From Owenia fusiformis (Eukaryota > Annelida > Polychaeta > Sabellida > Oweniidae), in the NCBI GenBank assembly GCA_903813345.2, contig CAIIXF020000009.1, positions 5,076,030 to 5,140,029 on the forward strand: 64,000 nucleotides of DNA, in the 5' to 3' direction. The notes below the pieces were generated by a model. It searched no databases. It had not been told where the DNA came from and saw only the letters and a program-made list of their open reading frames with translations. Each line of letters opens with the position of its first letter. Positions within the stretch are counted from its first letter, which is position 1. Below, piece by piece: positions 361 to 54,667 of the stretch. The translations under genes and the position numbers were made by a program.

Positions 361-573
361 CTACTCTGATTCAGTCTCTGAACTGGAAGGTTGCTCCACA
401 ATCATTTTGGTCTTTACAACAGGAGCATGAACAGTTTCCTCATATATAATCTCTGTCTTCCCATTCTCAAGGTCAGTGCGTGTATGGAGAATGTCATGCT
501 GACCTCCATTGGTGGAAGATGACGCCACCTTTAGTTCTGTACTGTAACCAGACTCACCTAATACCTCAACTTG
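361..573 (-). CDS. TEX14-like terminal exon with stop codon
   Basis: The 213-nt exon follows acceptor TTTCTTTCCAG and ends in a TAG at 361-363. It encodes QVEVLGESGYSTELKV, then TDLENGKTEIIYEE and a PSSSETESE C-terminus. An AATAAA signal lies on the minus strand at 329-334, only ~27 nt past the stop, inside a short tandem array that echoes the last codons. Confidence 0.8.
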   Translation of the reverse strand, partial: QVEVLGESGYSTELKVASSSTNGGQHDILHTRTDLENGKTEIIYEETVHAPVVKTKMIVEQPSSSETESE

Positions 574-3500
574 CTGGAAAGAAAAAGAAAACATTGAATT
601 TCCATAAGAGAGTAGTGTTTTAGAAAATGAACAAGTTGGGTTTTATATTTTCACTCAGTTATTTTCCATGTCAATATGAGACACCTGCACTTTGCTACTA
701 GAGATGGAGTGGACACAATTAATAGCTATTAAGCCTGTAAAGCCTATTAAGCCTAAAGTCCAATTCTTTCCACTAAGATTATCACTATAATTTCAAAATA
801 ATTTTCTAACATCAAATTGCTGTTGGTGGCCTCTGTCCCTATCAATTTGTTATATAGTATTATTTTTGCCTTATGCAAGGAAGGATCTTATTTGTTGAGT
901 TATACCTTGACAGATTGCTCACAATATGTCTGATCAGACTGGGGAGTTACATGTGTCATCTGTTGCAGGTTATTCCTCATAGCTGGCCTGTTTCCAGGGG
1001 TGTAAGGAGTGAATGGAGTCATATACTCTGTAATTAATATCAAGTCAATTACATGTGAAGTGTATAGTATTCTGGGGTGTACGGAGTGAATGGAGTCATA
1101 TACTCTGTAATTAATATCAAGTCAATTACATGTGAAGTGTATAGTATTCTGGGGTGTACGGAGTGAATGGAGTCATATACTCTGTAATTAATATCAAGTC
1201 AATTACATGTGAAGTGTTAAGTATTGTGGGGTGTATGGTGTGAATGGAGTCATATACTCTGTAATTAATATCAAGTCAATTACATGTGAAGTGTATAGTA
1301 TTCTGTGGTGTATGGAATGAATGGAGTCGTATACTCTATAATTAATATCAAGTCAATTACATGTGAAGTGTTAAGTATTCTGGGGTGTATGGTGTGAATG
1401 GAGTCATATACTCTGTAATTAATATCAAGTCAATTACAAGTGAAGTGTATTGTATTCTGGGGTGTATGGAGTGAATGGAGTCATATACTCTGTAATTAAT
1501 ATCAAGTTAATTACATGTGAAGTGTATGGTATTCTGGGGTGTACGGAGTGAATGGAGTCATATACTCTGTAATTAATATCAAGTCAATTACATGTGAAGT
1601 GTATAGTATTCTGTGGTGTATGGAATGAATGGAGTCGTATACTCTATAATTAATATCAAGTCAATTACATGTGAAGTGTTAAGTATTCTGGGGTGTATGG
1701 TGTGAATGGAGTCATATACTCTGTAATTAATATCAAGTCAATTACATGTGAAGTGTATTGTATTCTGGAGTGTGTGGAGTGAATGGAGTCATATACTCTG
1801 TAATTAATATCAAGTCAATTACATGTGAAGTGTATTGTATTCTGGAGTGTGTGGAGTGAATGGAGTCATATACTCTGTAATTAATATCAAGTCAATTACA
1901 TGTGAAGTGTATTGTATTCTGGGGTGTATGGAGTGAATGGAGTCATATACTCTGTAACCAGAACAACGGCAACGCCAAAGCGTAGCGAATCCAATCGAAC
2001 AGAAATGGCTGGCATTTTACAAACGAAATATATAGCAAATATCATAAAACAACATACCAGAAAGGCCACCATTTTCAAAATGGTTAGCCAAGTTGTCATC
2101 AGAAGAAATAATATGCTTTTAGTAGCCACCTATAAAATTTTTGAAAAATCACACACATTTACTTGTGAAATAAGTAAAAAATGTAAAAATGACAGCCATT
2201 TTTTAAAATGGCCGCCTACTATCCAAGTGTCATGAGACAGTGTGCAAGGCTCGTGAGTATTCACATATCAAATATGAACAAAATCGCTTCACTACTTTTC
2301 AAGTTATAGTAAAAACGTAAAAATGGTGGTCATTTTTCAAAATGGCCACCTACTACCCAAAGTGTCATTAGACAATGTGCCATGCTTATAGTATTCACAT
2401 ATAAAATATGAAACATACCAAATATGAACAAAATCGCTGAACTACTTTTCGAGTTATAGTAAAATACGTTAAAATGGCAGCCATTTTTCAAAATGGCCAC
2501 CTTCTACCAAAAGTGTCATTAGACAATGTGACATGCTTATAGTATTCACATACCAAATATGAACAAAATTGCTTCACTACTTTTCGAGTTATTGTAAAAT
2601 ACGTTAAAATGGCGGCCATTTTTCAAAATGGCTGCCTTCTACCAAAAGTGTCATAGGACAGTGTGCCATGCTTATAGTATTCACATACCAAATATGAACA
2701 AAATTGCTTCCCTACTTTTCGAGTTATAGTAAAATACGTTAAAATGGCGGCCATTTTGAAAAATGGCCGCCTTCTACCAAAAGTGTCATAGGACAGTGTG
2801 CCATACTTATAGTATTCACATACCAAATATGAACAAAATCGCTCCACTACTTTTCGAGTTATAGTAAAATATGTTAAAATGGCGGCCAAATTTTTTTTCA
2901 AAATGGCCGCCTTCTACCAAAAGTGTCATAGGACAGTGTGCCATGCTTATAGTATTCACATACCAAATATGAACAAAATCGCTCCACTACTTTTCGAGTT
3001 ACAGCAAAAATCGTAAAATAACGAGTAAAGGCCGAAAAATGGCTGCCATGTGCTTTTTTTAATATCTACGTTTATATCACTTACTTCCCTCTTAATTATA
3101 TGTCATTACCTTAATAAATTGACTAGTCGAAAGGTCTAACACCCCTATTGAATGAACGGATTAGTGAATGAACTCGTCCAATACACTGCCTATCCATGCT
3201 TCATGCTACGACCTACTTCATATTACCTTTCGACGACCATCTCGCTACAAGCCTTCAACAGAACTTGGAGCAACTATATTCGTCAAGATGATGAACAACG
3301 AGGACGTTTACATGAACACCTCAGAGAAATGTCCTGCTATCATTCTCCAGCAAGAAGAAGGAGAATGCACTGATAGAGACACAGAGCAAGCAGGGATTCA
3401 AGAGAGTGCAGACCAGAACTTCAACATGAGTCTGACTGACAACTTTCTCAAGGAGAAGATTTCTGTTCTGATGAACGAAATGCTTCAAAACAAGCAACAA

Positions 3501-6500
3501 GAAAGCCCAAGGAACAGTGTGAACACCAGGCACAGCAGTCCTCGGAGGCTTCAACAGGAGGCAAGGTCGGACAGACCAAGCTCAGCGGCAAGGAGTGAAT
3601 TTGTCAGAAGTCCCCGCAAAAGTTGCAGGAGTCCCCGCAGGAGCCCTAGCCCATGGAGATTTCAGGACCCCAGAAGCCACGCAAGTCCCAGGAGACGTGC
3701 AAGTCCTTCGAGACGTGGCAGCCCCAGGAGACGTGGGAGACATTCGAGCAGTCGGGACAGAGTTTGGAGCCCTAGGAGACCAGAACCCAGACGTTATACG
3801 CCGGAGAGAAGAGGTCATCATGACCGTCATGGTGAACACAGTCCACGCAGGCGTAGTAGGTCTTACAGTCGTGAAACTAGTGTCTCTTCTAGTTACACGC
3901 CTAGACCACGTGACCCGTCACTTCGTAGCAGCAGAGACAAGCACAGAAGTCCCCATAGGAGACCAAAGTCCCGCTCTAGAAGCAGAAGTCCAGTTCGAAC
4001 GAGGTCACCTAACCCGGAAGTGATTGCTCCAGTTTCACTTTCGAAAGAAAGTTCAACCAATCACAGTCTCGAACGTCACGAGGGGCCCGAGGATATGGAC
4101 TCGCCCAGTGAAAATTTTCAAGATGGCGGCTCCAGGATTTCGGAAGAAGAGAAAGTTTTGGCTTCGTACAACGCGGCGGCGATATCACAAGTCAAAAACC
4201 TGTTACCAGACGCTAACCTGACGCACCAAGTTCCAGACAGAGCGGTGGTTATCAAGCCCTTGGCATCGCAGTTCTTCAAAAACGAGTCTGAAGGTAATGA
4301 AAAATCTTTCTTACCATTATCACCCACGGTGATGACTTGTTTTTCTAACAGATCCTCGATCATCGCGAACGATTTCGCCTTCAAAAAAGTAGGACAACTT
4401 TCCCGAAACGACAAGGCATCACGCTTTCCAATTCCTCCAGCCGGAGGACTTGTTGTTTCGAGTATGAGGCCAAATTCCAGCCTGTCAGCGGTGATGTCTG
4501 AAGAAAATTTCAAGAAAGCTGACAAGGATTTGACTATCAGCAAGACCCAGTATAGGCTTCTAGAGGAAGGCTTAAGATTCCAACTGAAACCTCTGGCATA
4601 TGCAGAATGGCTGTTAGGTGCAGTGGCCAAAATTCTCAACGATTCTTCATCCACTGATACTAAGATGTTGTCTGATCTACTACAACCTGCAGCACAAGCC
4701 ATTGGCTGTCTGACTGATCAAAATGTGAGACTGCTGTCCAACGTAGTTCTACTTAGGAGAGATGGCTTCTTGAAGAACATGACTTGCCCTTCTGCAGCAA
4801 AGGAAATGCTCAGAACTCTACCCATAAACCCTTTGGCTCAGGAATTATTCCCACAGGAGTCAGTCACTGAAATTTTGAAGTCCAACCAGTCTGATCTCAC
4901 CAACCAGGCTTTAACTTCCTTGGCTAAGATGAATGCAAGAGCTGAATCAAAGAAGTCTTCTCAACCAAATAAGAAAGACAACAACAACAACAACAGAAAG
5001 TCCAGTTTCAATAACAACAATGGCCCTGGTAAAAAGAACAGCTCTAACTCTTTTCGTGGCAAGGGAAGAGGAGAGAAAAAATCACAGTGACTATCTACCT
5101 ATATCATCCAGTCCTCCAAGTCTTTGTCTCCCACAGCTACCTGTAAGCCCTCAACAGCTACCAGTGGGAGGCAGACTACAGCATTTTCTTGCCAAATGGA
5201 AAGAAATCACAGATCTAGGAGGATTTCTACAGATCATAAAGGAAGGTTACCAGCCGAAACTTCACACAAAACCTACCCTTACATGCAATCCTTGGCCTTT
5301 CCAGTCATCAACAAGAGACAGAAAAGACCTTTATGCAGCTACAGTCACTCAACTTCTGGAGAAACAGGCCATAGAAGTTGTCCAGAACGTATCCAGTCCA
5401 GGCCTTTACAGTCATCTTTTCTTCGTCCCAAAAAAATCCGGCTCTCTAAGACCAGTCATCAACTTGCATCATCTGAACCTTCATCTAGAAGTTCCAAAGT
5501 TCAAGATGGAAACAGTAGCACAGATCATGGATGCAGTACAGCCTCAACAGTGGGTGACGTCCATAGACTGCGTAGATGCTTACTTTCATCTCCCAATCAA
5601 GCAGTCATTCAGGAAATACCTGCGCTTTGTTGTTCAGGACCAAGTACTTCAATTCAAAGCCCTGCCCTTTGGTCTGGCATCAGCCCCGATGATTTGGACA
5701 CATCTGTTACGGCCTCTAGCAGCTCATCTTCACTCCAGAGGCATACTGTTTCATTATTACCTCGACGATTGGCTGATTCGAGGCAATTCACCTACAGTAG
5801 TTCTACAACATACTCAGATGGTGCTGGAACTGGCTCAGGCTCTGGGTTTCCTCATAAACTTCAAGAAGTCGGAACTACAACCAACTCAGAAGTTCACTTA
5901 TGTGGGAGTAGAATACGATCTCAGCAAGGGAATTTGCCGTCCCCCTCACGATCGAGTAGAAAAGATATGGAAAGCTGGACAACATCTTCTAGAGAAGGGA
6001 ATAGCCTCAGCAGAAACTAGGCCTGTTGTCATCTGCGGAGAAACAAGTGCCATTGGGTCGTCTTCATCTACGACCTCTACAGTGTTGTCTGTTCCAACAG
6101 TGGTCTCCTCTATCTCAGCCCCAGTCACATCTAGTTGTCCTCTCACCAGATGCTCAGGGGGCACTCCTATGGTGGCTAGACCCCAGGAATTTACAAGCTG
6201 GTCAGCCTCTCAACAGATTTCACCCAACAATGACAATCTACACAGATGCATCGTTGGAAGCATGGGGGGCCCACACACAATCGCAGGAATGCTCTGGAGT
6301 CTGGTCCCAGTTGGAATCAAGTCATCACATCAACTTTCTGGAGTTACTAACAGTCAAGAAAGCTCTGATGTTCTTCAAGGAAAAGATAACTGGACAGAAT
6401 ATTCTGATTTGCACAGACAGCACGACTGTAGCAGCATATATCAACAACCAGGGCGGAACACATTCCCCTCAACTACTCCAGTTAACTCAGGAGATTCTCT

Positions 6501-9500
6501 TATGGTGTCACAATCAGCAAATTGTACTCAGAGCGAATCATATTCCAGGATCACTGAACAGAAGGGCAGATCAGTTATCCCGGAAAAACCAGATTGTCAA
6601 CACAGAGTGGTCTCTTCATGCAGACATAACCAAGAATCTATGGAAAATATGGCCAACTCCCAATCTGGACATGATGGCCACATCTCACAATCACAAACTA
6701 CCAGTTTACGTGGCTCCAGTTCCAGATCTTCAGTCGTGGAAAACAGACGCCATGTCACTGAATTGGGACAACATGTACTTCTACATATTTCCCCCAACAG
6801 CAATGATAGCAGCAGTCCTGAACAAACTGCAGGCTCACCAAAACACAAAATGTGTAATGATAGTACCAAAATGGCCCAATCAACCATGGTACCCAGACCT
6901 TCTCAGTCTACTAGTAGATTTTCCTGTACTGATTCCAATATGGAAGAAACTCCTTCTTATGCCAAGGACCTCGATTTTTCATCAAGATCCAGAAAAGATG
7001 TCTCTACACGCTTGTCTGTTATCAACAATAACTTGCGAGAGGAGGGGTTTTCTGAAGAAGTGTCCAAAGCAGTACAAAAGTCTAGGAGAAAATCTACCAA
7101 TGCCATCTACGATTCAAAGTGGAAATTATTCTCTGTTTGGTGTTTGGAAAGAGATACCAATCCCATCGAGGCATCTATTCCAATGATTGCAGATTTCTTC
7201 ATTTATCTCAGAAACACTAAAAAGAGGTCTTTTTCTACTATCGAGGGCTACACAACAACTTTTTTCACCCCACCTATCCAATATGTTACATGCTATGACA
7301 TATAATTAAGAGGGAAGTAAGTGATATAAACTGAAGATTTTTTTTATTAAATCAACCGTTTATGGAACTTACTTACCTCTTAATTACCAGAGACCCACCC
7401 ACCTTCCCCGCTTGAGGGAAATTTTTTATTTTATTTTTTTGTATCTTCGAGGTCTCTCGGTAATATGAAGTAGGTCGTAGCATGAAGCATGGATAGGCAG
7501 TGTATTGGACGAGTTTATTCACTAATCCGTTCATTCAATAGGGGTGTTAGACCTTTCGACTAGTCAATTTATTAAGGTAATGGGATATAATTAAGAGGTA
7601 AGTAAGTTCCATAAACGGTTGATTTAATAAAAAAAATCTTCAATTTGTAGCTTTATTAATGTCCTTTATAATTTTTTTACACTTAAAACATATTGCTATT
7701 ACAGTTTTACATATTGTACCTAAATTACTGTAAAATCGGCACTAAAATGGCCGCCATTTTGAAATGAGCGGCCATTTTGAAAATCGGCTTTCAAGCAGAA
7801 CTTCTACCCCCATAGGGTATATGTGTACAAAATATGAACAAAATCGGGCCAACGGTATTTGAGTTATTGCCCGGACGGACGGACAGACGGACGGACGGAT
7901 GTACGTACGGACGGACGGACGGAGGCGTTCCCTATATCCCTCCGAACTTCGTTCGATGGGATAATTAATATCAAGTCAATTACATGTGAAGTGTATAGTA
8001 TTATGGGGTGTATGGAGTGAATGGAGTAATATAATCTGTAATTAATATCAAGTCAATTACATGTGAAGTGTATAGTATTCTGGGGTGTACGGAGTGAATG
8101 GAGTCCGATAATATCAAGTCAATAACATGTGAAGTGTATAGTATTCTGGGGTGTATGGAGTGAATGGAGTCATATATTCTGTGACGTCTATAGTATTCTG
8201 GGGTGTAATGGAGTCATATATTCTGTAATTAATATCAAGTCATTTACATGTGAAGTGTATAGTATTCTGGGGTGTATGGAGTGAATGGAGTCATATATTC
8301 TGTAATTAATAAAAAGTCAACTACATGTGAAGTCTATAGTATTCTGGGGTGTAATGGAGTCATATATTCTGTAATTAATATCAAGTCAATTACATGTAAA
8401 GTGTATAGTATTCTGTGGTGTATGGAATGAATGGAGTCGTATACTCTATAATTAATATCAAGTCAATTACATGTGAAGTGTTAAGTATTCTGGGGTGTAT
8501 GGTGTGAATGGAGTAATATAATCTGTAATTAATATCAAGTCAATTACATGTAAAGTGTATAGTATTCTGGGGTGTATGGAGTGAATGGAGTCATATATTC
8601 TGTAATTAATATCAAGTCAATTACATGTGAAGTGTTAAGTATTCTGGGGTGTGTGGAGTGAATGGAGTCATATATTCTGTAATTAATATCAAGTCAATAA
8701 CATGTGAAGTGTATAGTATTCTGGGGTGTATGGAGTGAATGGAGTCATATATTCTGTAATTAATATAAAGTCAACTACATGTGAAGTCTATAGTATTCTG
8801 GGGTGTAATGGAGTCATATACTCTGTAATTAATATCAAGTCAATTACATGTGAAGTGTATTGTATTCTGGGGTGTATGGAGTGAATGGAGTCTCTGAAAT
8901 ATCAAGTCAACTTCACGCATAGTTTCTCAAACATATCAAGCAATGTGACATTTTGAGTTTTTAATGGAAAGGGCAAGTAAATTAGTTCATTATTTGCACA
9001 AATCTTTATTCTCAGTAAATCCCTGGCATCTTTCTACTCTATTCAAAAGGAATATTCCAATTTTTCTTTTTTCAAAGTCAAACATGTACAAAGAACAAGA
9101 ACTAAATGCATGACAAGGCCTACTTCTAATTTTCCTTTATATCTTTTGATCTTCCTCCGATTCATTTATAAGCAAAATCAGAATTCCATAGAACAAGCCC
9201 ATAAACCTGATTTACTTACCATTTGTATTCCCCAAGGCAGACACTTGAAATAAACTTTCACCCGCAGTGCCATCTATGTAGCGAATAGTGCTCTCAGCTT
9301 GACTGGGGTCATATGTCATATTCTTGGGGTCAAAGGTCACATTTCTGGACTCATAGTTGGAGGCTTTAGGCTCAAAGTTTCTTCCTTCAAGGTCCCTTTC
9401 AGGAGTCATGTTAGAGTCAGGATCTAGTGCCATGGTTTGCTGGAAGAATATATAAGCATAATGCCAAAAGGGAAGGGTGACTAAAAACTTAAGGAAACCC

Positions 9501-12500
9501 AACAAGAAAAGCAAACTGTAAGTGTAAATCTGTCATAAGAAAAGTAGACCCTATATATCCCAAAACCATGATCTAACATGAAAGGAAACAATGTCTAACA
9601 GTAACATCCCCCTCCCCCTCCAATCGAGAACCAATATCACAATCCGGGACCAGAACACCAAGGGACATTTCATTCATACTGAAGTCATTACAATAAATGT
9701 TGAAGAAAAATTGAAAAATTGATAGCCAATACTCATAACATCAAAAATAGTTGTAGATACTAGTACTCATAAAAGATAATTCAGTCTCAAATGATGTGGG
9801 ATAGATAAAAGAAAATGTTTAAACTTCTCAGGATATATTGACTTGATATACATTTTTATACTTTCAAAGTAGGAAACATCCATGAAAAATCTGATTTTAT
9901 GTATTTTTATAATGAATTAATTCAAAAGCATGGGAAAGCTTTATTTTTTTGATTTCCACACAAACTTAGCTTCTTAATCAATATAATACCTGAAGTCTCA
10001 TATGTCTTGCTTGTTCTGCATTAGGATTTAGCTCATCATCAAAGTAAGAGTCATCATCAACAGCATGCTTTCCATTGCCAATGTTCATTCCTGCAATCTG
10101 AAGAACACAGGGACATTTAGGACATGTATATTTACATGATTTAGGGCATGTATTAAGATGTAAAATTCATCAACATTTCTTATTTGTAAGCATAATTTTG
10201 AGCTCCACAATTTTCTACTAATATAATGTCAATGTCCTCCCTAGAATTGTTTTATGTTGAGTATTTTGTTGTTTTTTGGTGTTAAAATATGTCTCAATGT
10301 GGGACAACATACTGATTTTGAACTGATTGCATTGTACTGTATCTACTATCTATAAACTTCAGTGCATCTTTACTTGTTTATCTGCCTGACTAAGAAGTCT
10401 GTTTATCCTATCCACATTTTCCCCTGAGCTGGAGTTGTTTGAATTACTGGATTCCAGGGCTGTCCTAAACGTATCATTGTTTGATTCAAATTCTGAAACA
10501 AAATTGATTTCAAAGTCATAAATGTTAAGGGACCATTCTTTTAAAGCAACTGTCTTTGATATATCTGAAGCTGACCTTAATTCAAGTTATTTTATTAAAC
10601 ATTGATATACAGTATTCATATGAAAGAATATATACTCACTGTTTGGGGACTTCACCATATGGCTGTCGACATTATCAACCCCTTTTCCAAGCTCCCCTAA
10701 AGTAAATTAGGCTTATTAAATGAGTTGTATGGACATATTACGTTTCAAGTGAGATGTGTGAATACATGAAATGAAGTATGGGAACACATTGAAGATTAAA
10801 GAGAAATGTGTGATTATATTGAAGAATCAAGTGAGATGTTTGAATACCTTAAAAATCAAGAGAGATGTGTAATAACATTGAAGAATCAGTGAGATTCATG
10901 AATACATTGAAGAATCAAGTGAGATGTGTGAATACATTGATTGAAGATTCAAGTGAGATTCGTGAATACATTGAATATTCAATTGAGATGTGTGAATACA
11001 TCGAATATTCAAGTGAGATTCAGGATTACATTGAATATTCAAGTGAGATGTGTGATTACATTGAATATGTATTCAATTGAGATGTGTGAATACATTGAAT
11101 ATTCAAGTGAGATTGGTGATTACATTAAATATTCAAGTGAGATGTGTGATGACATTGAATATTCAAGTGAGAGGTGTGAATACATTGAATATTCAAGTGA
11201 GAGGTGTGAATGCATTGAAGATTTAAGTGATATATATGAATACATTTGACAAAATATCTAAATACATTGAAAGGTTCAAGTGATATATGAAATGTTTGCT
11301 GGTCCTAACATACCCTTTGGTTTAACAGACATATTTTGTGTCACAATTTCATCCAGGGAATCCACTGGGTCTAGTTTCAGCTGCTCCATGGGGTGTTTTG
11401 TCTTGTCTAACATAGGGAGCCTTGATTGATGTTGAGGGGTGCTACTGAACTGTGCATCTTTGGCCCTAACTGATGGTTTGATGTTGTCAGGCATACTGTC
11501 TGCAGGTGATATAGAGGACTGTTGGCTCTGTATTAAAATACATGAAAAATAGAACTATAGATGTCAAATGTGGGGTGTAGGCCTTAATAGCCTTGATACA
11601 AAAATGTATAGTATAAACCTCTGAATTAGAAAGTTGACGTCAACCTGCTTTGGAATGATAGCTATTTATTCTTTCATTTAAACCTCTTTAAAACACATAT
11701 TGAGGGAATGATATATCAGTCACAGCATTTCTCCTATAATGGGTCCAGTTTTGGTAAATTTTGTTCAATGTACACAAATGATGTATTCAAATGTGTGTAA
11801 CAGGTCTATTCACCAATATAACACTTCGAAGGGTTAAGATTGTAAAAAATGGCAAAACAGGGAAAAACGATAAATTAGAATAAATAACCATATGCTTATC
11901 TATTGCTTGAAAATATAAATAAATATAGAATTTGAGGCAATATATGTACCTCATCATTATTGAGTTGCCGGTACTGGGGAGCATTAGGTACGACAGCGAA
12001 GGTCTTGGGAGGCAGGTTATCCGCTTCTTGTAGATGGGGCATACAACGAATACTACTCCTATTGCGTAATACTGTTTGTTGGAATGTGTGCTTCAAGAAA
12101 ATAATTTAGCAGCTTCAAATTAGATCTTGAATATGATGCAGCAATCTTCTAAGGATTAAAGAAAATGGGTGCTGAATCCTTTTGCTATTCATTTACAATG
12201 TAACTCAATTGAAAATAAAAATTAGGGGATAACACCCAAACTATACATACTGTTTTTGCATGATTTTGGAAGTTAGATGCAAGGTTTCGTACACTGCCAT
12301 GTCCTGCAAACCAATCTTCTTCAGGCTCTTGGGTAGGACTTCTCTTCTGCTGGTATGTAATATTAACACCAGATCTACAAGTAAAGTTAAAATCAGATTT
12401 GCAATATGGCAAATTAGCATTAGATCTATAATGTGGCAAGTTAACATTGGACTTACAATGTGGCAAGTTAACATTTCATATCTACAATATGGCAAGTAAC

Positions 12501-15500
12501 ATCAGCTTGGCAATATGGCAAGTTAACATCAGATCTACAATATGGCAAGATAGTTAACATTTTATGTTGACAACATGGCATATTTACATTTCATATCTAC
12601 ATGTATATGTACAATATCTCAAGTAACATTAGATCTACTACTTGTATATAATTAACATTTCAGATCTACAATATGGGAAGTTAACATCAGAATTACAATA
12701 AAGAAAAAGATAACATCTGATCGAAAATATTACAAGCTGAAACAGATCTACCATTACAATGTATTGAAATGTATACAATATAATATATACAATGTATCTA
12801 ATAGCCTGCACAATACACAACCAGAACAACGGCAACGCCAAAGCGTAGCGAATCCCATCGAACAGAAATGGCTGGCATTTTTACAAACGAAGCGCAAATA
12901 TCATAAAACAACACACCAGAAAGGCCACCATTTTCGAATGTTTGCTCACTAGCCAAGTTGTCATCAGAAGAAATAATATGCTTTTAAGTAGCCACCTCTT
13001 AAATTTTTGAAAAATTGCACACGTACTTGTAAAATAACACACATAAAAATGGTGGCCATTTTGAAAAATGGCCGACTACTCCCCAAAGTTTTATTAGACA
13101 ATGTGCCATGCTTAAAGTATTCACATATCAAATATGAACAAAATCGCTCCACTACTTTTCGAGTTATAGTAAAATACGTTAAAATGGCGGCCATTTTTCA
13201 AAATGGCCACCTTCTACCAAAAGCGTCATTAGAAATAGACAGTGTGCCATGCTTATAGTATTCACATACCAAACATGAACAAAATCACTCCACTACTTTT
13301 CGAATTATAGTGAAATACATTTTTCAAAATTGTTTTCAAAATGGCCGCCTTCTACCAAAAGTGTCATAGGACAGTGTGCCATGCTTAAAGTATTCACATA
13401 CCAAAAATGAACAAAATAGCTCCACTACTTCTCGAGTTATAGTAAAATATGTTAAAATGGAGGCCATTTTTCAAAATGGCCGCCTTCTACCAAAAGTGTC
13501 TTTAGACAGTGTGCAATGCTTATAGTATTCACATACCAAATATGAACAAAATCGCTCCACTATTTTTTGAGTTACAGCAAAAATCATAAAATGATGAGTA
13601 AAGGCCGCCATTTTTCAAGATGGCTGCCATGTGCTTCTTTAATATCTACATTTGTAGCATTATTAATGTCCTTTATAATTTTTTTACATTTAAAACATAT
13701 TGCTATTGCAGTTTTACATATTGCACCTAAATTACTGTAAAATCATCACTAAAATGGCCGCCATTTTGAAATGAGTGGCCATTTTGAAAAACGGCTTTCA
13801 GGCAGAACTTCTACCCCCATAGGGTATATGTGTACAAAATATGAACAAAATCGGGCCGACGGTATTTGAGTTTTTGCCCGGACGGATGGACGGACGTACG
13901 TACGGACGGACTGACGGAGGCGTTCCCTATATCCCTCCGAACTTCGTTCGATGGGATAATAAATAATTCATACCAGAAAAACATGGAGAAACATGGGACA
14001 TTTGGAATTCTACCCAGTTGGTAGGTGAATAGAATACAATGTATTGCAATTTATACAATGTATCTAATAGCCTGGATAAACACAATAAATAATTTATTCC
14101 AGAAAACATGGGACATGTGGAATTCTACCCAGGTGAATAGGTGACAGGTCAATGCACCTGTAGGGTCTTTATCAATAAATCTGATATAGAAGGTGACCCT
14201 GAAGAGAGTGATCAAGTCAATTAACCATTTGCTTTATAGTGTGTTTGGGGAATATGTAGTGATATTAGGAAGAAATGTGTTTGGGGAATATGTAGTGATA
14301 TTAGAAAGAAATGTGTGTTGGGGAATATGTAGTTATATTAGAAAGAAATGTGTTTGGGGAATATACGTATAGTGATATTAGAAAGAAACTCTCAAATAAT
14401 GCGATTTTCATATCCGCGAGTCTGTTTTGTCATAACAGTATTGTAGCTATATAATTGATACTGCATATCATATCAGTTCTGAAACATTCCAAGGTTCAGC
14501 CGGTTCCTTGTTGATGAATATATCAAAATATTTTTCATTGTGAAACAATGTTTGCAAATGAATAAATAAAATATAATTTAGACTATTGCAAGCAGATGAA
14601 AAACAAGTATCTATAAAAGGCTTTGTTCATTGTCAAAATGATAGTCACATTCTACTAGCATTTAATAATAAATGTCATTTTCATTCTGACACATTCCATG
14701 GTTCAGTCTGACTTGTTCAGTTGTTGATGATCATCATGAGACTAGTTTTATTGTGGAACTATATTCACAAATGAATTCATAAATATATAAAACAAAAACA
14801 AAGACAAAAACCTATCGTTTGTCTTTTATATTTATTGTTTATGCTTATTGTAGTAACGGACACAGGGGGTTGAAATGCCTGGGGTATTTCTGTTACTAAT
14901 ATAAACATAAACACAAAATTATGACACCAAAATGTTTTTATCTTTTCAATTTTCCCAAATAATTTTTGTTCACTGGCAAAGGAATGAATAAATAACATGC
15001 TAGTATACAGTAAATCTCTTTATGGACAGTCAACTTTCACCCAATCTTGATTGTCTAAAAAGTAGAACAGGACAACAGGACAGGACAAAAAAACACCAGT
15101 GAATCCTCCCACATGTTTATTGTACATTTGATTTGTATTTCAGGTGAATCCTCCCACATATTTATTGTACATTTGATTTGTATTTCAGGTGAATCCTCCC
15201 ACATGTTTATTGTACATTTGATTTGTATTTCAGATGAATCCTCCAACATATTATTGTACATTTGATTTGTATTTCAGGTGAATCCTCCCACATATTTATT
15301 GTACATTTGATTTGTATTTCAGGTGAATCCTCCCACATGTTTATTGTACATTTGATTTGTATTTCAGGTGAATACTCCCACATATTTATTGTACATTTGA
15401 TTTGTATTTCAGGTGAATCCTCCCACATGTTTATTGTACATTTGATTTGTATTTCAGATGAATCCTCCAACATATTATTGTACATTTGATTTGTATTTCA

Positions 15501-18500
15501 GGTGAATCCTCCCACATATTTATTGTACATTTGATTTGTATTTCAGGTGAATCCTCCCACATGTTTATTGTACATTTGATTTGTATTTCAGGTGAATCCT
15601 CCCACATATTTATTGTACATTTGATTTGTATTTCAGGTGAATCCTCCCACATGTTTATTGTACATTTGATTTGTATTTCAGGTGAATCCTCCAACATATT
15701 TATTGTACATTTGATTTGTATTTCAGGTGAATCCTCTCACATGTTAATTGTACATTTGATTTGTATTTCAGTACACGTATAACATAATACATCTGGGGGG
15801 GATTTGTCCTCCATATTTATGAATAACAAAGCCCTGAATAATAAACTGAAAATAGTATTCACCCTTAAATATATACTATCAACCTACTTGAATCTCCCTG
15901 AGTCAGGCTCATCCAATGAAGGAGCAGAGGGGACCTCATATCCTTGATCACCAAACCAGGAGTCTCTTCGTTCCAGAGAATTTGGCCCACTATTTGGGTC
16001 AACATTCTGAATGGGTGAATTCTTAGTACTGGGAACAAAATGACTAGCAGGTTTACATATTCCTGCCCCGGTATTTTGCCCTTTCAAGCTTGAATTCAAG
16101 TTCAGATAGCTGCTAGAAGTTCTGTTTAAGGTTGTCCTATAAGTAATTACAAGGATTTTACACGCAAAATGTTACCACCACCTGCTATTTGTTACAGATG
16201 CCCCATGCCAACCGCCATCCACATGGAGACTATAACAATCAGTCACCACCAGAAGTGAATGATGAAACATAGAAAGATTCATTGTTTCATCCAAGTCATT
16301 TAAGTCAAAGGTTATGAAATTATTGCAATCATGGTGATGAATATTAATGTAATAAATATTAACCAATATTTTTTTTATCTATACACTTTACAACACATTA
16401 TACACAACAATAATATCAGTTTTAAATATATTTTATAGTTATTTATTGAGTAACATAAATGTTTTGGTACACATTTGTATAATAAAATTTCACCTGCTGC
16501 CATGGAAACCATTACTGGCCCCTGATGTTCTAGAAGTTATGCTTGAGTTGAGAACTTCTCCATTGCGCCCACTTCCGGCTGATCTAGTTCTACTATGCTT
16601 GTATTGGTAGCCTCTACTTGGACCATTGCTAACACAGAAATAAAGTTTAACAAAACCTCCTATTTTGCCAGGCAGAATACTTTTGATTCAAGGAAGTTTT
16701 TTTCCAAAAAGTTACAAAAAGATTCTGATGGGGAAAAAATTGTTTATGGAAACACCATGGAAAAAATGGTGTTGAAAATTGCAACACTATAATTTTAGTA
16801 TACACTGCCAATCTCAAACATCTCTGTTTATGAAACACTGTGCTGGACAACGCTGTAAAAACAGTACTACTGTACATCACTGCAGTGCTCGAACTGCACC
16901 GTTCAGTACTGTTAACAGTGCTGTACAGCGCTGCAAGATGATGTTGCAGATTTGGGTTGAAATTATGGTGCAATCTTGTTGAATGTTCCTGAACATGAAA
17001 AGGTTCAATGATTGAAACATTCAATATTCAAATTTATACTTTTTGAGAAAAGTTAAAAATATAAATGAATGAAAATCATTTCAATATGGTCAATACTTTT
17101 TCGTAAAAAATAAATTATGGATGAGTACATCATAAATGACTGTCAGTAATAAAACCATAATATATTTTATCATTAAAAGTTTTCACAAAAGACAAAATAG
17201 TAAAATCAATGCCATTTTCAAGCTCCATTTTTGACTTGGAATAACTGCTGAGGTAATATTCTTTTATTAAGTTATTTCAAACATTATCAGTGTACCTTTG
17301 TATTAAAAACTTTGACAGGGGGCCTGGATTAATGTTGGAAGATTCACTGTTGTTATTGTTCACTGACCTTCTCAGTGCAGGTGGTTTACTTGATGTCACC
17401 TGGCTCAGGTACTGTTCAGTGATGTATTCTCGATTTTGTTTTGTTGGCACGACCATATCAATGTCATCATAGGCTTGGTAGGGTTTCCTATGAATGATAA
17501 TCAAAATAGGTTTAGACCATATCAATTTCATCATAGGTTTGGTTAGGGGTTTCTTTGAATGAATATAAAATCATACTCCGATTACAGGGCTTCAAAATCC
17601 AGAATATATTCCTTCTTTTTACCCCATGCGATAAGCAGTTAACATTTCCCCGATTAAGAACTCGCAATCTGATTGGCTGTCGCAACACTGCGACAGAAAT
17701 CATATATAAGTCATTGCGCATAATTAGATCATGTGATTTAGTTAAATCGGGAGCTTCCAAATTGGTTATAGCAGGGGGAAGGAGGTACGGATTCTGGACA
17801 CCTGCTTAGGAGGATGATATAAAATAGATTTAGAGTTTAAAGAGAGTATCAGAGATAGCGAGCAGGCCAACAAAAATTGATTCAATTTTAGAATATATCT
17901 GGCTCATGTCATTCCTTGTCATATCTATTTTTTAATAATCCCCAAAGTACACAGTTTATTTCAGGAAAACGATAGATTTTTACAATAATGTATTATTTTT
18001 CTATAAAAATGATTACCATTCTTATTATTTGAGAGAATTTTAACATTTTACACTCATTTTTGCACTTTGAATCCATGATAACTTCATCAATTTATACATT
18101 ATCGTGAACCTTTTGGGAAATATTGTATTTGAGATTGTAATGAATAGATTGGTAGGTCAATTGTACATGTTGTTTGTAATTTTGTCACCCCTATAGATCT
18201 GATTCTGCCTTTAATGTCATCATAGGTTTGGTAGAGTTTTCTTTGGATGAATATTAAAATAGATTTAAACAATATCAATGTCATCATAGGTTTGGTAGGG
18301 TTTCCTATGAATGAATATTAAAATAGGTTTAGACTATATCAATGTCATCATAGGTTTGGTAGGGATTCCTATGAATGAATATTAAATTATATTTAGACCA
18401 TATCAATTTCATCATAGGTTTGGTAGGGTTTCCTATGAATGAATATTAAAATAGGTTAAAACTACATCTATATCAATGTCATCATAAGCTTGGGATGGAT

Positions 18501-21500
18501 TTCTTTGAATGAATTTTAATTTAGGTTAAGACTATATCAATGTCATCATAGGTCTGGTAGAGTTTCCTTTGAATGAACATTCAAATAGGTTTAGACTATA
18601 TCAATTTCATTATAGGTTTGGTAGGGTTATCTATGAATGAATCACATTTAGACCATATCAATATCATCATAGTGTTGGTAGGGTTTCCTATGAATGAATG
18701 TTAAAATAGGTTTAGACTGTATCAATGTCCTTATAGGTTTGGTAGGGTTATCTTTGAATGAATATTATAATATATTTAGACCATATCAATGTCATCATAA
18801 GTTTTGATAAATATTTTATTGCATTTCAGGCATACCAATATCAACATAGTTTTGTTCGGTTTCATATGTATGAATATAATTATATATTTAGACCATATCT
18901 ATATTTTATTTTTTTTATTTATTGATTTCTCAATTCACCCCTATATAGGGTATAAGAGTACAAAAGACAAACTTAACTAATACAGTAACAAACATTAAAA
19001 TAACATTTATATACATGTAAGAACATTTTTTGCCCAGAATGTCATCAAAGGTCTGTTCAGGTTTCCTGTGTATTAATTTTATGGTACAAATAGACCATAT
19101 CAATGTCAGAGGTCTACTTAGGTTTCCTTATTATTAATTTTTTGATATATTTACACCATATTTATGTCATCATTCAAGTACATTGTAGGTCTGTTTAGTT
19201 CCTACTAAAAAAATTATATTACAGTTAGGGCAAGTCAATGTCAACATATGCTTGTTCCAATTTCCCAAGTAATGATTTTTGATCCCCAAAATTTTGAAAT
19301 TGTGGAAATGCTGAAAAAGATTTTAGAAAACAATGCCACTTATATATACTTAAATTAAGACTTACCTTTGTTGATGCAAATTCTGAGCTGATTTATAAGG
19401 CCCTTTTGAGCGGAACACTTGACGTTTTCTCTCAGCTGTCTGGTCTTTGTAGTTGTATTCATCCAGGTCACTATCACTGTCATGATGAGATGATGTCTTT
19501 GCCTGTTGTTTGAGGCGAGTCTCTTGACTATATGTACCATCAACTTCATCATAACCTCCTCGTCTGTAAGAGAAAAAATGTACTTACAATCTACATGTCA
19601 CCATGTACTTGTAAATATAATGGTTTTACAATACACAACACAAGAGTGAAATGCAGTGGAGGAATTTAAGTGAATTCAGCACTTCTAGTTCTGAGCATAA
19701 TGTCAGGTAGATATTTTGGGTTCCTAGAATAAAGCATTGTCACTTTAGTAATTCAGTTTACGCCGACATTATGTGTTCCTCTCAAAGTTTCAAACCAGGC
19801 AAACCCAGGTAATAAAAATCATGTTAATGCAAGGGGATAGAGCATAAACATTGCAAATGAAACCAACAAGATAGAGAATCTGCCTAGGGGGAACACACAT
19901 TGTTTTCAATTCTACTGATGAAAAACAAAAATCAATCAGTAAAATGTATATACTATACAGATTGTCCATTGTTCAGTGAATGCACATGAAGAGCTAGGAT
20001 GCTATATCAAATGATCATGACTTGATGAAAAGATGCACATTATTTGTAACAATAAGGTTGAATAATCAATTCCAGGGCAAAGGGAGAAGGGAAAACCTTG
20101 CTCAATATATCACATAACATGACAAATGAAAATTACTTAATGAAAAGATAATCATAACTTGTTATGTTAATAATTAATGAATAGGAAAAGTAGTGGAGTG
20201 CAAACATAAACACTGGAAAAAATGGTGGCTGACACCCCATGCGAAAAAATATAACACAATATGAAAGCAAGTCTATACTAATAAAAATAGTATTAATTTT
20301 GAGGAATTCAATGGCAAAATGTTTTTTGGAGAAAAATGTAGGAAAATGTGTTTAATAATTAATTGATTTTACCTGTCATAAGGTCCTGCTAAAGATTGAA
20401 CAGGTTGATCTCTCTGTTTATTTTGCTTCAACGAGCTTCGTGGCAATGGGTCCCTGAAGCATAAAAAAATTTAATAAATATATCTGCAAAATTGTGAGTT
20501 TGTTTTCGATTTTCAAAGATAAAATAAATAGAATATTTTAAAACATATGTTTTAATTTCAACATTTATTTAGTTGACAGCCTTTCCTGCATATAATATCA
20601 ATGTTGTTTTCTTTTTTATCAAATCCTCTTTGTTCATCAACAAATAATCAAATTCTTTTGATACAGGTCTTCGTTCTGAAGTTCATGCAACCTAAGTATT
20701 AGGAAATGCTAGGAAATATGTTTGTTTGATAACCTGATCACCTACACAGCTTTTTAATCACGTTACATCAAGTCATCAGTTAAATGTGCTTTTTGCATGA
20801 AAACATATTTTCTAGTATGTTTAGAGGTTCTGGAAACAGTTGATGTGCTCCAAGTCGTCTCACAAAACAAAATACAATATCATCAAACGATAACATTTTT
20901 GCAATCTTTGTTAATAGAGCTCTGCCTCGCCAAATATTTACATATCTGATGAACATTTATGAATCTTTATAGTATCCCACAGAAACTATCTGGCTTTCAT
21001 GATGCTAAAATAATTTGTATGGATAGTATACTGCATAAGTGGTAATTTTGCCTAATCATTTAATTTGCCTATTTCCTAATTTTTGCCAGGTTCGGAAAAT
21101 TAAATGTCGGAAATATTGTCTTTATAATGTTATCCAATGGGAGGTTTCTTGTCATTAGGAAAATTAAAATTAGGAAAATGATGAAATTTGACCATTCGGA
21201 AAATTAACCACTCGGATTAAATACCACTTATACAGTATCTTGAACACCAGATATATAGGTTGGGCACTTCTATTTTCAAAAATGACCGTTGCATCCACAA
21301 CAAAACACTCATTTCTGCCACATCAAATATTTCTCGTCAGGATCTCTCTGCATAGGGTGATTTTGGTTACCGTTACAATTCACATATTGATAAAATAAAG
21401 GATATCCTATGATTCATGAGTGATATGATATTTATCCACAAATTGACATCTGCATAGGGATCGTGTCGTGAGAGGGTACAGATATCGATATCCATTAATA

Positions 21501-24500
21501 TCACAGTAACTATGGAACCAAAATAAAATGCCATAATGAAACACCAGTGAGTTTTGGAACAGGTCTGAGGATAAGGTTGAAACTTTTTGGTTTAATAAAA
21601 CTGATTATTTTTTAAATTGGAACATCTCATATTGCTTACAAATTGTAACAGTGTGAGCAGTGAATGTTCCAAGTCCTGAAATATCCGAAAAAGATTCTTT
21701 GCATCATGGTCCATCAATAAAGTAAATAATAGAATGAGTTACATCTTAGGTTTATTTAGGAGCAAAAGTAATGAAACTGTCCATTCAATATATTTCCTTG
21801 TGATGTCAACCTGTATATTGGAAAAATAAATTTCCAATACGAGACTATTGTTATGTTACTGTTCCTTTGTTTTTCAACCAATTAGGAACGAGCTTTACCA
21901 AGCTTGTGGGACAATATATAGAGTATTTTTGTACATAAGAGTTCATGATGACTCAAGAGAATGAAAGGTGCTCACATGTTTCGCATGTCTCTCATGCTAT
22001 TGTTTATGCTGACGAGGGTCTGTAGAGGAGAAATTAAAGGGGAAGTGCTTACATCAGAGATAGAAGGATGGGTGAAACGAGCTGGCTATTGCCCTGGAAC
22101 AGACATTAGTAATATAATCGGTATATCAGTAGAGGAGTGTGCTGCAGAATGCAAAGCAACTCCAACCTGTGTGATATTCACGTATCACCCTGAGACAAGT
22201 CGATGTTTCAAGAAAAATTATGTTTGTCCAACGTCTCAGATGGTACCATCAGAAGGTCAATGGGCTTCAGGATTGGGTACATATCACCCTGTCCCTGATG
22301 CATGTGAAACTGCAATGACAAAAGATAATCCAACAATTGAATTCTCTCCTTCGTCCATAAAGATAAGTGACTTGTATTATGGACCACAACATGCATATAT
22401 TGATGCCACCACAGTACTACACACTACCTTGGGGACAGTTGAGAAATTTGGAGGTTGGATGCCTGCAACAAATGATGCAACTGAATATTGGGAGGTCTCC
22501 TTTCGTGAACTGACAACTGTGGATAAGGTTATAACGCAGGGAGGTGAGGGTTCCACAAATTGGGTAACTCGATATAATGTAAAGCACAAACCAACCTCAA
22601 GTGATGAGTGGGTGAGTGTTGGCCCATATGATGCAAACACCAATGCAGAGGACAAAGTTACACATCTGCTTGTACCAACAGCTACCGCCAAAATCTACCG
22701 TCTTGAAATCATAGCATGGAATGGTGCGATTGCAATGAGAGTGGAGCTGATTGGGTGTCTACCATCAGGAAGCTGCTCCCAGTCATTGATCAAAGCTGAC
22801 CCTGATGTCATCCTATCTGTTTCAAGTGTTGGTGATAATGATCCAGTTTTATATGATGCGGCACAGTCAAAGATTGATACATTAACAACTGATGACCAGG
22901 AAATATTTCGTTTAGGAGGATGGTCTGCTGGAATCTATAATCAGGATCAATGGCTTCAGGTTAGCTAAAATAGATAAGATTTTCAAGCCGATTCTCATGT
23001 TTCTCATTGAATATTTAAATACTAGAAAAAAACTTGCTTGAACTTGATTATCTGCAATAAATAAATTATTATTTCAAAGGGATTTTTAAGGGAATGCTTT
23101 TAGTTGATGAGGATTTTGAATGCTCGTGTATTCTTTCCATTGATTAATATAATCCCCCATTTTAGTTTGGGAGATTTTGAGCATTTCTAATTAAAATCGG
23201 AACATTGTTATTTTACAATTAAAACATTTGGGATGAGAATACTTGATTTAGCTGGAATTTAAGGTTCATCAATATCGAACATGTTTTTTCCACCATCTTG
23301 CCTGATATTTACCCATCCTGCCATGGACCATAAAAACAGATAAGTGATACCATACAGAACTGTTTTGTGCATTAAAGCAGATATGAAATGGTATTTTTTA
23401 ACCTAAGGGAATCAATTTGATTTTTTGATAAATGTATTTGGACATGTTTTCTCATCAGTAGTGTGAAAATTATTTCACTCTAACGATCGTAATAGCTGCT
23501 TAATAAACAATATTCGAATTGGTTGTGACGTTATTGGCCCCCACGTGATCTCTCACTGGCCCCCACGTGGCCCGTTTTGGTCCATTAGATCATGACGTCA
23601 TAATGCCAAAATGTTTTGTTATTTGTTTACACAACAATCCTATGGTTGCCGTGACGTTGTGATTACTAAGGAACCAATAAACCAAAGCTATATTTTGTAT
23701 ATGACGTTACTAATCACGTGGGGGCCAATTTGATTGATCAGTTTGTTTTATTTCGTTATCTATGACCGTTAGCAGTTATCTAACATTTATTTCATAATGG
23801 CTATCACAAGAACTCTACGTTGGGCTTACAATGGAGAAAACCGCATTTTTGTAGCTGCAAGTTGAGAAAAGCTATTTCAGTTGTCCTTTAATATTGATGT
23901 TTTTGGCAGTACTAAAACTCGGATAAGTCAAACTGAATGAATTTGGACATGCGAGAGCTTTGTTTGCTCAATATATTTTTACAAGTCAGTTTAACCTTCA
24001 GTATCTGTTAATTTTCTAAGGTTATTTCTTCAAATGAAATAGGAAAGGCGCCAACAAACGTATGGCTTAACTTCATCATAAACTACAAAATGATGAAGAG
24101 CTCCATGTACTATTACATTTTTTGCACATCTTTCTCCTACTTTGTTTTAGGCTGAATTTCCAAAGATCAATGTTGTCACAGAGGTCATAACACAGGGAAG
24201 CAATAGAAGAAATAAAATGATTACATCATACAAGGTTTTATCGAGCATGGATGGTGTGAACTGGATTGAAAGAGATAGATTTTCAGGTAATATATACCAA
24301 ATATTCCATTCTATTGAGGTGAATGCATGTTCATCTTTCCCTCAGTGTATTTCCTGCAGCAGGAAATATATCTGAGGGAAAGATGAACATGTATAGAATG
24401 GAATATTTGATTTATCATATCATTTGAATATTCTACAAATTAGGTTTATTTCTTTAAACCATTTAATGGTAACATGGCAACGAAAACACCATTGCTATGA

Positions 24501-27500
24501 GTACCCATGCTCACACTACAAATATAAGCTATGACGTCATAACAATGAAGCTTTGTTGTCATGCATATCCAAGTATTTTGTACAATATTGTTGTGACATC
24601 ATGACAAAAACATAACATCCAGGACTTTCTACCATGGTTATACTCCGTGGTATATACAGTTGAAAAGGAGGCTGCAGCTGAAGACGGCTGGAAACAATAA
24701 AATACACCCTAATATTTTCAATCATGTGATCAGTTCTTATCCAATAACAAAGCAAGAAACATTTCAATGATATAATAAATTGGTTTAAATTTTCCTTCAT
24801 TTCAGCAAAGAAAAATACTAATCTTACTTGTGAATTACCTGTGAATTAAGATACCTGAAATATCTTAGTGATGGTCTTACTAAAGGAGAAGATGTACCAT
24901 TTAACCTTCTTTGTAAAAGTCATTGGTTGGGATATGGGGTTTGTGTATTAACTGATGTAATTCACAGAAATCAAGTTCTTTCATTTTTATCCACTTTTTC
25001 CACCACAGTTGGATATACTGTAGTCGTGTTTGGTGTTATCATGATCGTTAGAAAACTGCTCATTGTTTTTTCAAATCAGTACAAATGATAAGGCATACCA
25101 ACTTCTAGAGCTGATTTACTTTTGGGTAGCCATTTTGTTCTCTGGCAGCCATTCTGGAAGTTTCTGAAACCAAATAGTGATATTTGTCATGTTGACACCT
25201 TCTGCACGACCAGTGATTGGAAAAAATGGGACAGAGGGGGAGCAGGCAATTCCTGCTGGAAAATTAAAAAACCTGAATAAATAGGTGCAAGGTATGGTAA
25301 AATATGTTAGGTGTTCTACGATTTTTCTGAACCAATACATTTCAAAGATTGGAGATATATTAAGAAAGGCACAAAGCCACCAACATGCCCAAGTCAATGT
25401 TTCTGCTATAAATCAAGCAACAATGGTCTATACAACCTGTCATAAATACTTGTGACGTTATCATAACTAAATTAATGCCATTGCTGACTTTATGAATAAG
25501 TTTCCAAATGTATAAATAAAAAGTAATCAAAAATTATAAAAATGGGACCAAGGGAGGGGGAGAGAGGACGAAGGAGGAGCAATATGTTCATAAGACATGA
25601 TAAGAGATGGTACTCGACTTTAAGTCCTATATAACTCTTTTCCCAATTTTTCCGTTCTTCAGAGGTGTAACATCCAGTTTCTTACTAAGTTACTGAGTTC
25701 ATTTTTCAAATACAAGAATTCGTGTAAAGTTGTTTCACTTTATAGACAAATTGCTCCACCTCCATCCCATTTTTTACTATTTTTGATTCATTTTTAAATA
25801 AATAATATTTGGAAACTTATTTTATAAAGTCACAATGGCATTGATTTAGTTATGATAATGTCACTTACAAGTATTTATTACAGGTCGTGTAGACAATTGT
25901 TGCTTGAAATATAGCAAAAACATTGACTTGTGTGCACATTGGTGGCCTACTTTTTTATACATCTCATATCTAAAAGCGTATCGGTTCAGAAAAAATCTAT
26001 TTGGTGGTGTGATTTCATTCGTGTCATGTGCCTTGTTTCCTATTGCCATCAGGGTTGCTTGGTAACATGGGGTTGAATTTACTTGGAGTTGAGTTTGACT
26101 GGGTTGAGATGTCATCTAAACAATGACCATGTTAATATTTCAAAAGCATGCCAAATCCTATTCGTGAATACGAATATAAAAATATTTGCCAAAAATCAAT
26201 CCCTCCAATGGGTTGCTTGGAAACATATAGACAATGTAAATATTTTATAACACATGCCAAAATCCTATTCAGGAATATAAATATGAAAAGAACTAAAATA
26301 AACTGATCCAAAGAGCAGACAAAATCATCTGATTGGAGGATGCCAAACAAACAAAATCCAAATAAACTGTGGTAGAGAGATTTCATGTTTCTGAAATATT
26401 TCCAAATTCCTCATTCAAGTATTATAGTAACTATTTAAGCAAAAAGAGCTATTAGCATAAAAAACTATGGGTTTTAAATATACCTTTGAAAATTGGCTAT
26501 GATATTGCAATGTACATTTATATGATGAAAATACAAATTAAATAATATCTTCATATCTAGAATTTCAAAAATTACAAAAACCATAATGCAGGATTTTTTC
26601 CATGTTTGCTAGAATAATTAAAATAAATTGATGATTATGCACTGGTTTGATTTAACAGATCAAGATCCTGAGAAGATATCTGGAGATGACAGATGCGGAC
26701 CACCCTACAACAATAAGGAATGTGATGTCTTGACAGCATATTGTTGCTCCACTCTTAACTGGTGTGGTTCAGATTCCCATTGCTCTTCATCACTCATTGA
26801 CTACAGACAAACAGGTAATTACAGCACTGCCATCAATCATAAAATCAAATATATGATGTTCCATTCGTAGAACTTGATAGTAGATGAGTACATAGTAAAC
26901 CACACAATTTTTTGCTCATAATCTGATGTAACAGAGAAAACATTTATAATTTTCTCATATTTAAGATGTTATACATATTTGCTTATCATATAACTTTTTC
27001 ATTTTAGGTGTATCAAGGAAAGGTGACGCAGACACAAAACTCTTTCACAAGTTCAGTAAAAGATTTCTTGCAAAATATGTTCGTATTGTCCCTCTAACAT
27101 GGAATAATGGTATTGAACTCAGGGCTGGCTATCTTGGCTGCGACTATAGCAACCACATTAACTTGAGCGAAGGTTTTGACAACACATTTTCACCAGTGAT
27201 CCTCAACCGAATCATTGATTACGATCTCAACAACAACACTTGTATGAACATTCCTAATACAGCTGAAGACCCCGGATATCTGAAATTCTCAACTGATTTG
27301 AACTTAGATTTTGGGTCTGATACAGAGTTTTATGTTGTGTTGACAGGTCGATTAGAATGTGAAAGCCCGTACCATTATGTGTACTCCGTAGATGTGGATG
27401 CCCCAGCTAGTACAAATCTTCACACAGGACGGTTTGAAAAATGCCAGCTTATTACTGCTGATGCCCTTCCTGACAACAGAAACAGCTGTACGTACATCTG

Positions 27501-39630: not shown

Positions 39631-40330
39631 CTGTAATCATATTGAACATGGCCATAAAGATGATGAAACAGGAAAATGTACACACATCACCCAAACAGAC
39701 ATTGAAAATTACTTGGCTTATAACTTGTTTGTACAAGCTCATATTCAGAGAAAATGGCATTTTCAGCTAACTTTATATTGTAATGGCTCTGGAAGCTACA
39801 TTTATGGGCAAGTGTTAGTGGCAGATTATATCCAAAGTGTGGGATTGTCAATATAGACGAGTGGATTTTATTACAAGTATTGACTGATCATTGAAAAACT
39901 ACCACCTATGCACTGATGGAATCAAACAACATGTTATCATGCTATTTAACTCCTGCTTGATAATTGTTTGTGATAGTTATGACAATCAAGTTCTGGCATT
40001 TAAATTCATTAATTGCTAATACAATCAATGAATTCACTTGGGAGTAAAAGTATATATCAGAATGGTGAGCATTGACATAGAAAGCAGAAGAGTCCAACCA
40101 TTATTGATCAACAGAGACATTTGATTCTGCACACTTGTGTTAAAAAGTTTTACTTTCATTTTGTCTCACCACCTTAAACCAACTAAAATAGAAATGCACC
40201 AGATAAACCTTATAACCTATAGTACAAGATCCTCGTCGTCCAAAAGTATCATTTTGTTCGAAACGATGAAGAAATCGTGAATCTTTGTATGGTGAAACAA
40301 CTCTATATTGCAATCAATTTTATCCGCTCG
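39631..40330. other. Unassigned region upstream of the first visible kinase exon
   Basis: No convincing minus-strand exon found. A 77-codon plus-strand ORF at 39623-39856 overlaps the acceptor region of the kinase exon and has no splice context, so it is not annotated as a gene. Confidence 0.4.
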
Positions 40331-54541: not shown

Positions 54542-54667
54542 GATGGGAAATTCTCTGCATTCCTCAATTGAGTCACATGTTATTTTTCAAACAAGAATCA
54601 CTCCTTCCCCACATTGTCTATATCTTCCAGTTTTGCACAAAGAGTGCACTTATGTGCCTAGAAAAGA

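Follow-up and report, generated by a model that had tools for sequence, protein, structure and literature searches.

Mirage-like minisatellites at exon edges of one gene and of conserved genes in the annelid Owenia fusiformis

Why should several exons of a single gene each begin with a sequence that is tandemly repeated in the intron directly upstream? The question is raised by a 64,000-nt stretch of the Owenia fusiformis genome (contig CAIIXF020000009.1, positions 5,076,030–5,140,029; G000:C9:5076030-5140029; hereafter the window), in which three exons of a minus-strand gene (906–1027, 12251–12374 and 17296–17487) adjoin minisatellites with periods of 77, 27 and 64 bp. An original prediction, made from this stretch, held that such exons were either born from satellites or keep seeding tandem duplication at their boundaries, and that both routes would create arrays of decoy 3′ splice sites. 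Our analysis of the window, of the whole genome and of exon edges in conserved genes favors a plainer answer: probably, these are minisatellites of the type known as mirages, in which the birth of an ordinary minisatellite happens to span a splice acceptor and its growth is confined to the intron.

The 3′ part of the host gene (361–19563, minus strand) was modeled by joining twelve phase-consistent exons by hand, from 19563 down to 361. The chain forms one open frame of 677 aa whose sole stop is terminal. Because the frame is consistent in phase across all twelve exons, the acceptors are set by reading phase and not by the repeats alone, and at each array the gene model requires just the exon-attached copy as the exon edge. 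In the echo test, 50 nt around each exon edge were aligned to the edge's own flanks and, for comparison, to 50 first-order Markov-shuffled flanks, of which the best score was kept; to pass, an edge needed a score of 36 or higher that exceeded the shuffle maximum by more than 4. Three of the twelve acceptors passed, namely 1027 (95 vs a shuffle maximum of 28), 17487 (80 vs 25) and, modestly, 12374 (40 vs 32). The nine other acceptors failed, as did every one of the 12 exon 3′ ends, which comprise 11 donors and the stop end; acceptors 19563 (25 vs 23) and 10097 (27 vs 24) were slightly over the shuffle maximum and far under the cut-off. The predicted coordinates of the three exons and the three periods were borne out by Tandem Repeats Finder (TRF), with which the arrays were located, by the gene model and by the echo test. 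The last codons of the terminal exon had also been thought to be possibly echoed in the array beyond; with 25 nt taken on either side of the stop end, this edge scored 24 against a shuffle maximum of 31 (24 vs 26 in another run), and the candidate was rejected.

The acceptor and first 31 nt of exon 906–1027 form the edge unit of array 1. The exon-proximal part of this array (997–1957, minus strand; 77 bp × 12.5) consists of 12 full 77-nt units, the exon's own included, and a half unit truncated by an insertion; in every unit an AG stands before 31 nt that resemble the exon. The insertion, ~6 kb in length (1958–7961, plus strand), is retroelement-like and contains an open reading frame (4933–7302) that matches the reverse transcriptase family RVT_1. 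Past the insertion the array is back in register (distal part, ~7963–8912, minus strand), and with this part array 1 is larger than originally stated. Two shorter relatives of the insertion, ~1.1 kb each, are located at 12821–13957 and 56168–57330 of the window, and all three elements have common ends (left, CCAGAACAACGG; right, TTCGATGGGAT).

Array 2 (12363–12549, minus strand; 27 bp × 7.0) includes the acceptor and the first ~12 nt of exon 12251–12374. It crosses the exon edge only in TRF analysis of the reverse complement (51452–51638); the forward run placed it at 12384–12549 with 6.1 copies. Being degenerate, with ~12 nt of exon inside, it is the weakest supported of the three arrays. In array 3, the edge unit comprises the acceptor and first 37 nt of exon 17296–17487, and a pair of 64-bp units lies beside the exon (17451–17571, minus strand). 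This array is only partly adjacent: next to the exon unit there is a single copy, and the remainder (18213–18804, minus strand; 64 bp × 9.3) lies past a 641-nt insert (17572–18212) containing a dispersed repeat. The 17894–18212 part of the insert is similar to segments at two other loci and to the window at 27875–28207. A tandem unit spanning the exon–intron boundary, the defining feature of a mirage, is thus clear in arrays 1 and 3 and modest in array 2. The proposal that exon starts are repeated in the adjoining intron holds for the three exons that pass the echo test, with the qualification that the signal of array 2 is modest and array 3 is mostly non-adjacent. A further array of 45 bp × 15 (15099–15771) lies in an intron of the same gene, away from the modeled exon edges; its plus-strand unit starts with GTGAATCC and ends with TTTGTATTTCAG, and the consensus unit thus contains both AG and GT.

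The consensus units of the three arrays appeared unrelated when compared by eye. Whole-genome searches (498 Mb) with one piece per array, which skip very common words, revealed neither copies outside the host gene nor a dispersed satellite as source of the arrays. Since the units look unrelated and these searches found copies in the host gene only, the prediction that the pattern arose repeatedly and independently within one gene is supported.

The same structure was also found at conserved genes. As controls, we used 90 loci around conserved exons of four chosen families: globin (16 of 19 matches; PF00042), myosin head (30 of 92), CCT chaperonin (30 of 60) and proteasome (14 of 29). Exon edges were placed on the genome sequence by a crude splice-site score alone, which yielded 153 of the 180 possible edges; at the other 27, which were excluded, the score accepted no splice site. 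Four of the 153 edges (2.6%, 95% interval 0.7–6.6%) lie inside arrays, all of them in chaperonin or proteasome genes: the acceptors of exons in CCT-theta (locus L058; 83 bp × 9.1), CCT-beta (L063; 96 bp × 4.2) and PSMA4 (L083; 104 bp × 2.7), and the donor of an exon in CCT-alpha (L053; 154 bp × 2). The subunit names were taken from searches against solved structures. By family, arrays contained 2/28 acceptors of CCT, 1/13 of proteasome, 0/16 of globin and 0/25 of myosin genes, and 1/25 donors of CCT, 0/15 of globin, 0/19 of myosin and 0/12 of proteasome genes; the globin and myosin genes, with 75 edges together, had no affected edge. The array rates of acceptors (3/82) and donors (1/71) exhibited no difference (p = 0.62).

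The echo test was positive at 5 of the 153 control edges; L067 was left out when edges inside arrays were counted, as the repeat there extends over just 4 nt of the exon. At this locus, a 30-bp duplication (1453–1512 of the reverse complement) stands immediately before a CCT exon and includes those 4 nt. Six further edges beat the shuffle maximum and missed the cut-off (L016, L038 with 35 vs 36, L044, L059, L061 and L087). The CCT-beta-like locus L063 contains a second array (2902–3153 of the reverse complement; 105 bp × 2.4), which is outside the 153-edge count; its unit consists of coding-like sequence followed by GTAAGT and is a candidate for a mirage on the donor side.

The repeated exon parts of the four control genes matched solved structures of the same subunits (for example, VAHPAAKMIVMAS vs VQHPAAKMIVMAS), and in a second conserved repeated exon part 20 residues aligned to the best matching chain. 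The best matching chains are presumably mammalian. Because these repeated parts are conserved in distant proteins, the four exons are older than their arrays.

The most economical account of these observations is that minisatellites are frequent in this genome, that some of them cross splice junctions and that growth is tolerated only on the intron side. A short tandem duplication, presumably produced by slippage or unequal exchange, would by chance span a 3′ splice junction; the copy joined to the exon body would remain the working exon start, and all further copies would lie upstream and be spliced out with the intron. Because the further copies are removed in this way, such an array can grow into the intron alone. 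The spliceosome would pick the acceptor attached to the exon, probably through exon definition, in which the donor downstream is paired with whichever acceptor is nearest; most products of mis-splicing may be cleared as transcripts with premature stops. The three occurrences in one gene are explained by its unusually minisatellite-rich introns: 29.7% of the intron points of the window gene lie in minisatellites, which makes several acceptors in arrays unsurprising.

We scored the repeated acceptors with a matrix trained on 58 acceptors of the O. fusiformis genome, which is somewhat circular because these were picked with the same crude score, and counted as decoys the acceptors in register with the true one, to the exclusion of other AGs. 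In array 1, the true acceptor scored 8.9 and the 12 registered upstream copies of the proximal part 6.6–9.0, 9 of them at least 8.9; all 12 run into a stop after 18 codons. In distal array 3, the seven registered decoys with a matrix score of 0 or more reached 1.5–5.0, all below the true site (5.2), and all seven stop within 15 codons. At the level of sequence, the predicted arrays of decoy 3′ splice sites are supported for array 1. Decoys of CCT-theta scored 6.0–7.2 in 8/8 copies (true site, 6.0) and all stop early, after 20 codons; in PSMA4, the one copy read scored 11.6, as did the true site, and stops early after 27 codons. Of the array 2 copies, two (−160 and −291) run to stops, and that at −107 is open but not in frame.

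Several observations weigh against the mirage account. Two distal decoys of array 1 outscored the true acceptor (10.0 and 11.3 vs 8.9); both also lead to stops. In array 2, a decoy at −51 nt scored 8.2 vs 7.7 for the true site; it is in frame, would add 17 residues and is open through the exon. All three CCT-beta decoys scored 8.3, the same as the true site, and they too are in frame and open through the exon. Because the decoys of array 2 and CCT-beta preserve the frame, their use could change the protein. By the echo criterion, the window gene exceeded the controls (3/12 vs 4/82 acceptors; Fisher p = 0.042), in a comparison for which this gene had been selected beforehand for the pattern; by the array criterion, the difference was not significant (2/12 vs 3/82; p = 0.12). 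Furthermore, the precedence of exon over array was established at the four conserved genes and not at the three window exons, and the use of the exon-attached acceptor is deduced from the genome.

The observations on decoys also bear on an alternative that gives the arrays a function: as decoy or alternative acceptors they would regulate the gene, for instance via transcripts with premature stops. In array 1, CCT-theta, CCT-beta and PSMA4, the strength of the decoys about equals that of the true site, which would favor this view, as would the frame-preserving copies just described. Nevertheless, we regard it as unlikely. Chaperonin and proteasome genes have this structure too, which suggests that no regulatory role is shared. 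Over 12 units of array 1, moreover, divergence is higher in the exon-like half (0.079) than in the intronic half (0.048); since the former is no better conserved than the latter, no coding constraint is visible in these copies. Amphioxus mirages are in addition reported, in the papers cited below, not to interfere with splicing.

Equally improbable in our estimate is that the exons, if only in their first codons, arose by exonization of pre-existing satellites. Array units would bring ready acceptors together with an open stretch, such as the KPYQ.YDDID.V peptide in array 3, and at the three window exons the exon-first order is unproved. The repeat-like portion, however, amounts to just 31 of 122, ~12 of 124 and 37 of 192 nt of these exons, so that most of each exon is non-repeat, and searches with one piece per array did not find the copies elsewhere in the genome that would identify an exon as derived from a repeat. 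Where the order could be checked, the birth of exons from satellites was not supported: at CCT-theta, CCT-beta, CCT-alpha and PSMA4, genes of the same structure, the repeated exon part is ancient and conserved.

Slightly less probable still is the view that exon–intron boundaries are preferred sites of tandem duplication, even though three acceptors in one gene, and four conserved edges in other genes, bear unrelated arrays. Among points in intron interiors of the 90 loci (at least 200 nt from a matched exon), 7.4% lie in minisatellites (bootstrap 4.7–10.3%). Edges are thus found in arrays less often than interior points (4/153, 2.6% vs 7.4%; binomial p = 0.019), with the reservations that the intervals overlap and that edges from one gene are not fully independent. 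Array coverage likewise declines toward exons, from 6.6–8.7% beyond 1 kb to ~3% in the first 100 nt (76 loci). Selection against exon damage could mask some preference. With arrays no commoner at edges than in the interior of introns, boundaries do not appear to be preferred sites; of the prediction that they seed duplication, the recurrence across boundaries stands and the preference does not. An assembly artefact with inflated or misplaced copies is very improbable: tandem arrays are difficult to assemble and copy numbers may be wrong, but most units of array 1 differ among themselves, the array continues in register across the insertion that splits it, and the pattern recurs in unrelated genes.

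Under the mirage account, then, the exon-edge arrays look like a tolerated by-product of abundant repeats and not like a special device. A broader claim can be offered only tentatively and is in our view rather doubtful: that mirages are general in minisatellite-rich animal genomes, at a few per cent of edges including those of essential genes, and that decoys which keep the frame, as in CCT-beta and array 2, continually supply protein variants and new positions for introns. If the mirage account itself is right, mirages are no oddity of amphioxus; 4/153 sampled conserved exon edges carry them. Each mirage lines up several near-identical acceptors and is thereby a natural experiment, in which RNA data could directly test the choice of acceptor (first transcribed vs nearest to the exon) as well as the growth of introns by duplication. 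Of greatest remaining interest are the decoys in CCT-beta and array 2 that preserve the frame.

As to the identity of the host gene, a Pfam search with the 677-aa region returned no match up to E = 1. A kinase-like exon at 39465–39686 matched PF07714 at 25.1 bits, just over the cut-off of 23.1, and its link to the twelve exons is putative. TEX14, a protein that carries a kinase-like domain and ankyrin repeats within a single chain, is a candidate label for the gene. On the plus strand, between the kinase-like exon and the C-terminal exons, open frames at 21952–27603 match PAN and F5/8 type C, and a lone minus-strand open frame of 394 aa is located at 53405–54586.

Mirages were described in amphioxus as tandem duplications across exon–intron boundaries in the Adh3, globin, troponin C and PGBD5 genes; they are reported to leave regular splicing seemingly undisturbed and may contribute to the creation of introns (PMC3087553, PMC3902484). 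No report of mirages in annelids was found in the open-licence literature, which is weak evidence, as the search was only partly directed at annelids or polychaetes. The mirages of Adh3, the globins BflGb6 and BflGb9, troponin C and PGBD5 are like the arrays described here in being minisatellite-like duplications of an intron–exon boundary, with many units that carry AG or GT signals and with acceptors or donors affected. Unit sizes are 10–72 bp (Adh3) and 150–160 bp (globins) in amphioxus and 27–154 bp in O. fusiformis. The host differs, an annelid instead of a cephalochordate, and three arrays occur in one gene here; undisturbed splicing was backed by RT-PCR in amphioxus, whereas the O. fusiformis arrays are known from genome sequence alone. 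In line with an annelid host, the one globin exon searched (locus L002) matched best to chains named giant or extracellular globins, which are annelid proteins; genome searches for GFP (PF01353), RAG1 (PF12940), COX1 (PF00115) and a lancelet fluorescent protein gave no matches. Two other systems can be compared. The internal tandem repeats of human segmental duplications (PMC2812944) are similarly found at exon–intron boundaries and may yield novel introns, but they belong to recent paralogues and half of them are in coding sequence, whereas the present arrays are intronic and stand beside a single exon edge. In intron gain by tandem genomic duplication (PMC4974935), the duplicated segment also includes splice-site sequence; there a new intron results, whereas here existing introns seem to have been enlarged. 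The exon-edge arrays of O. fusiformis are thus probably of a known kind, the mirage, in what is probably a new host group.

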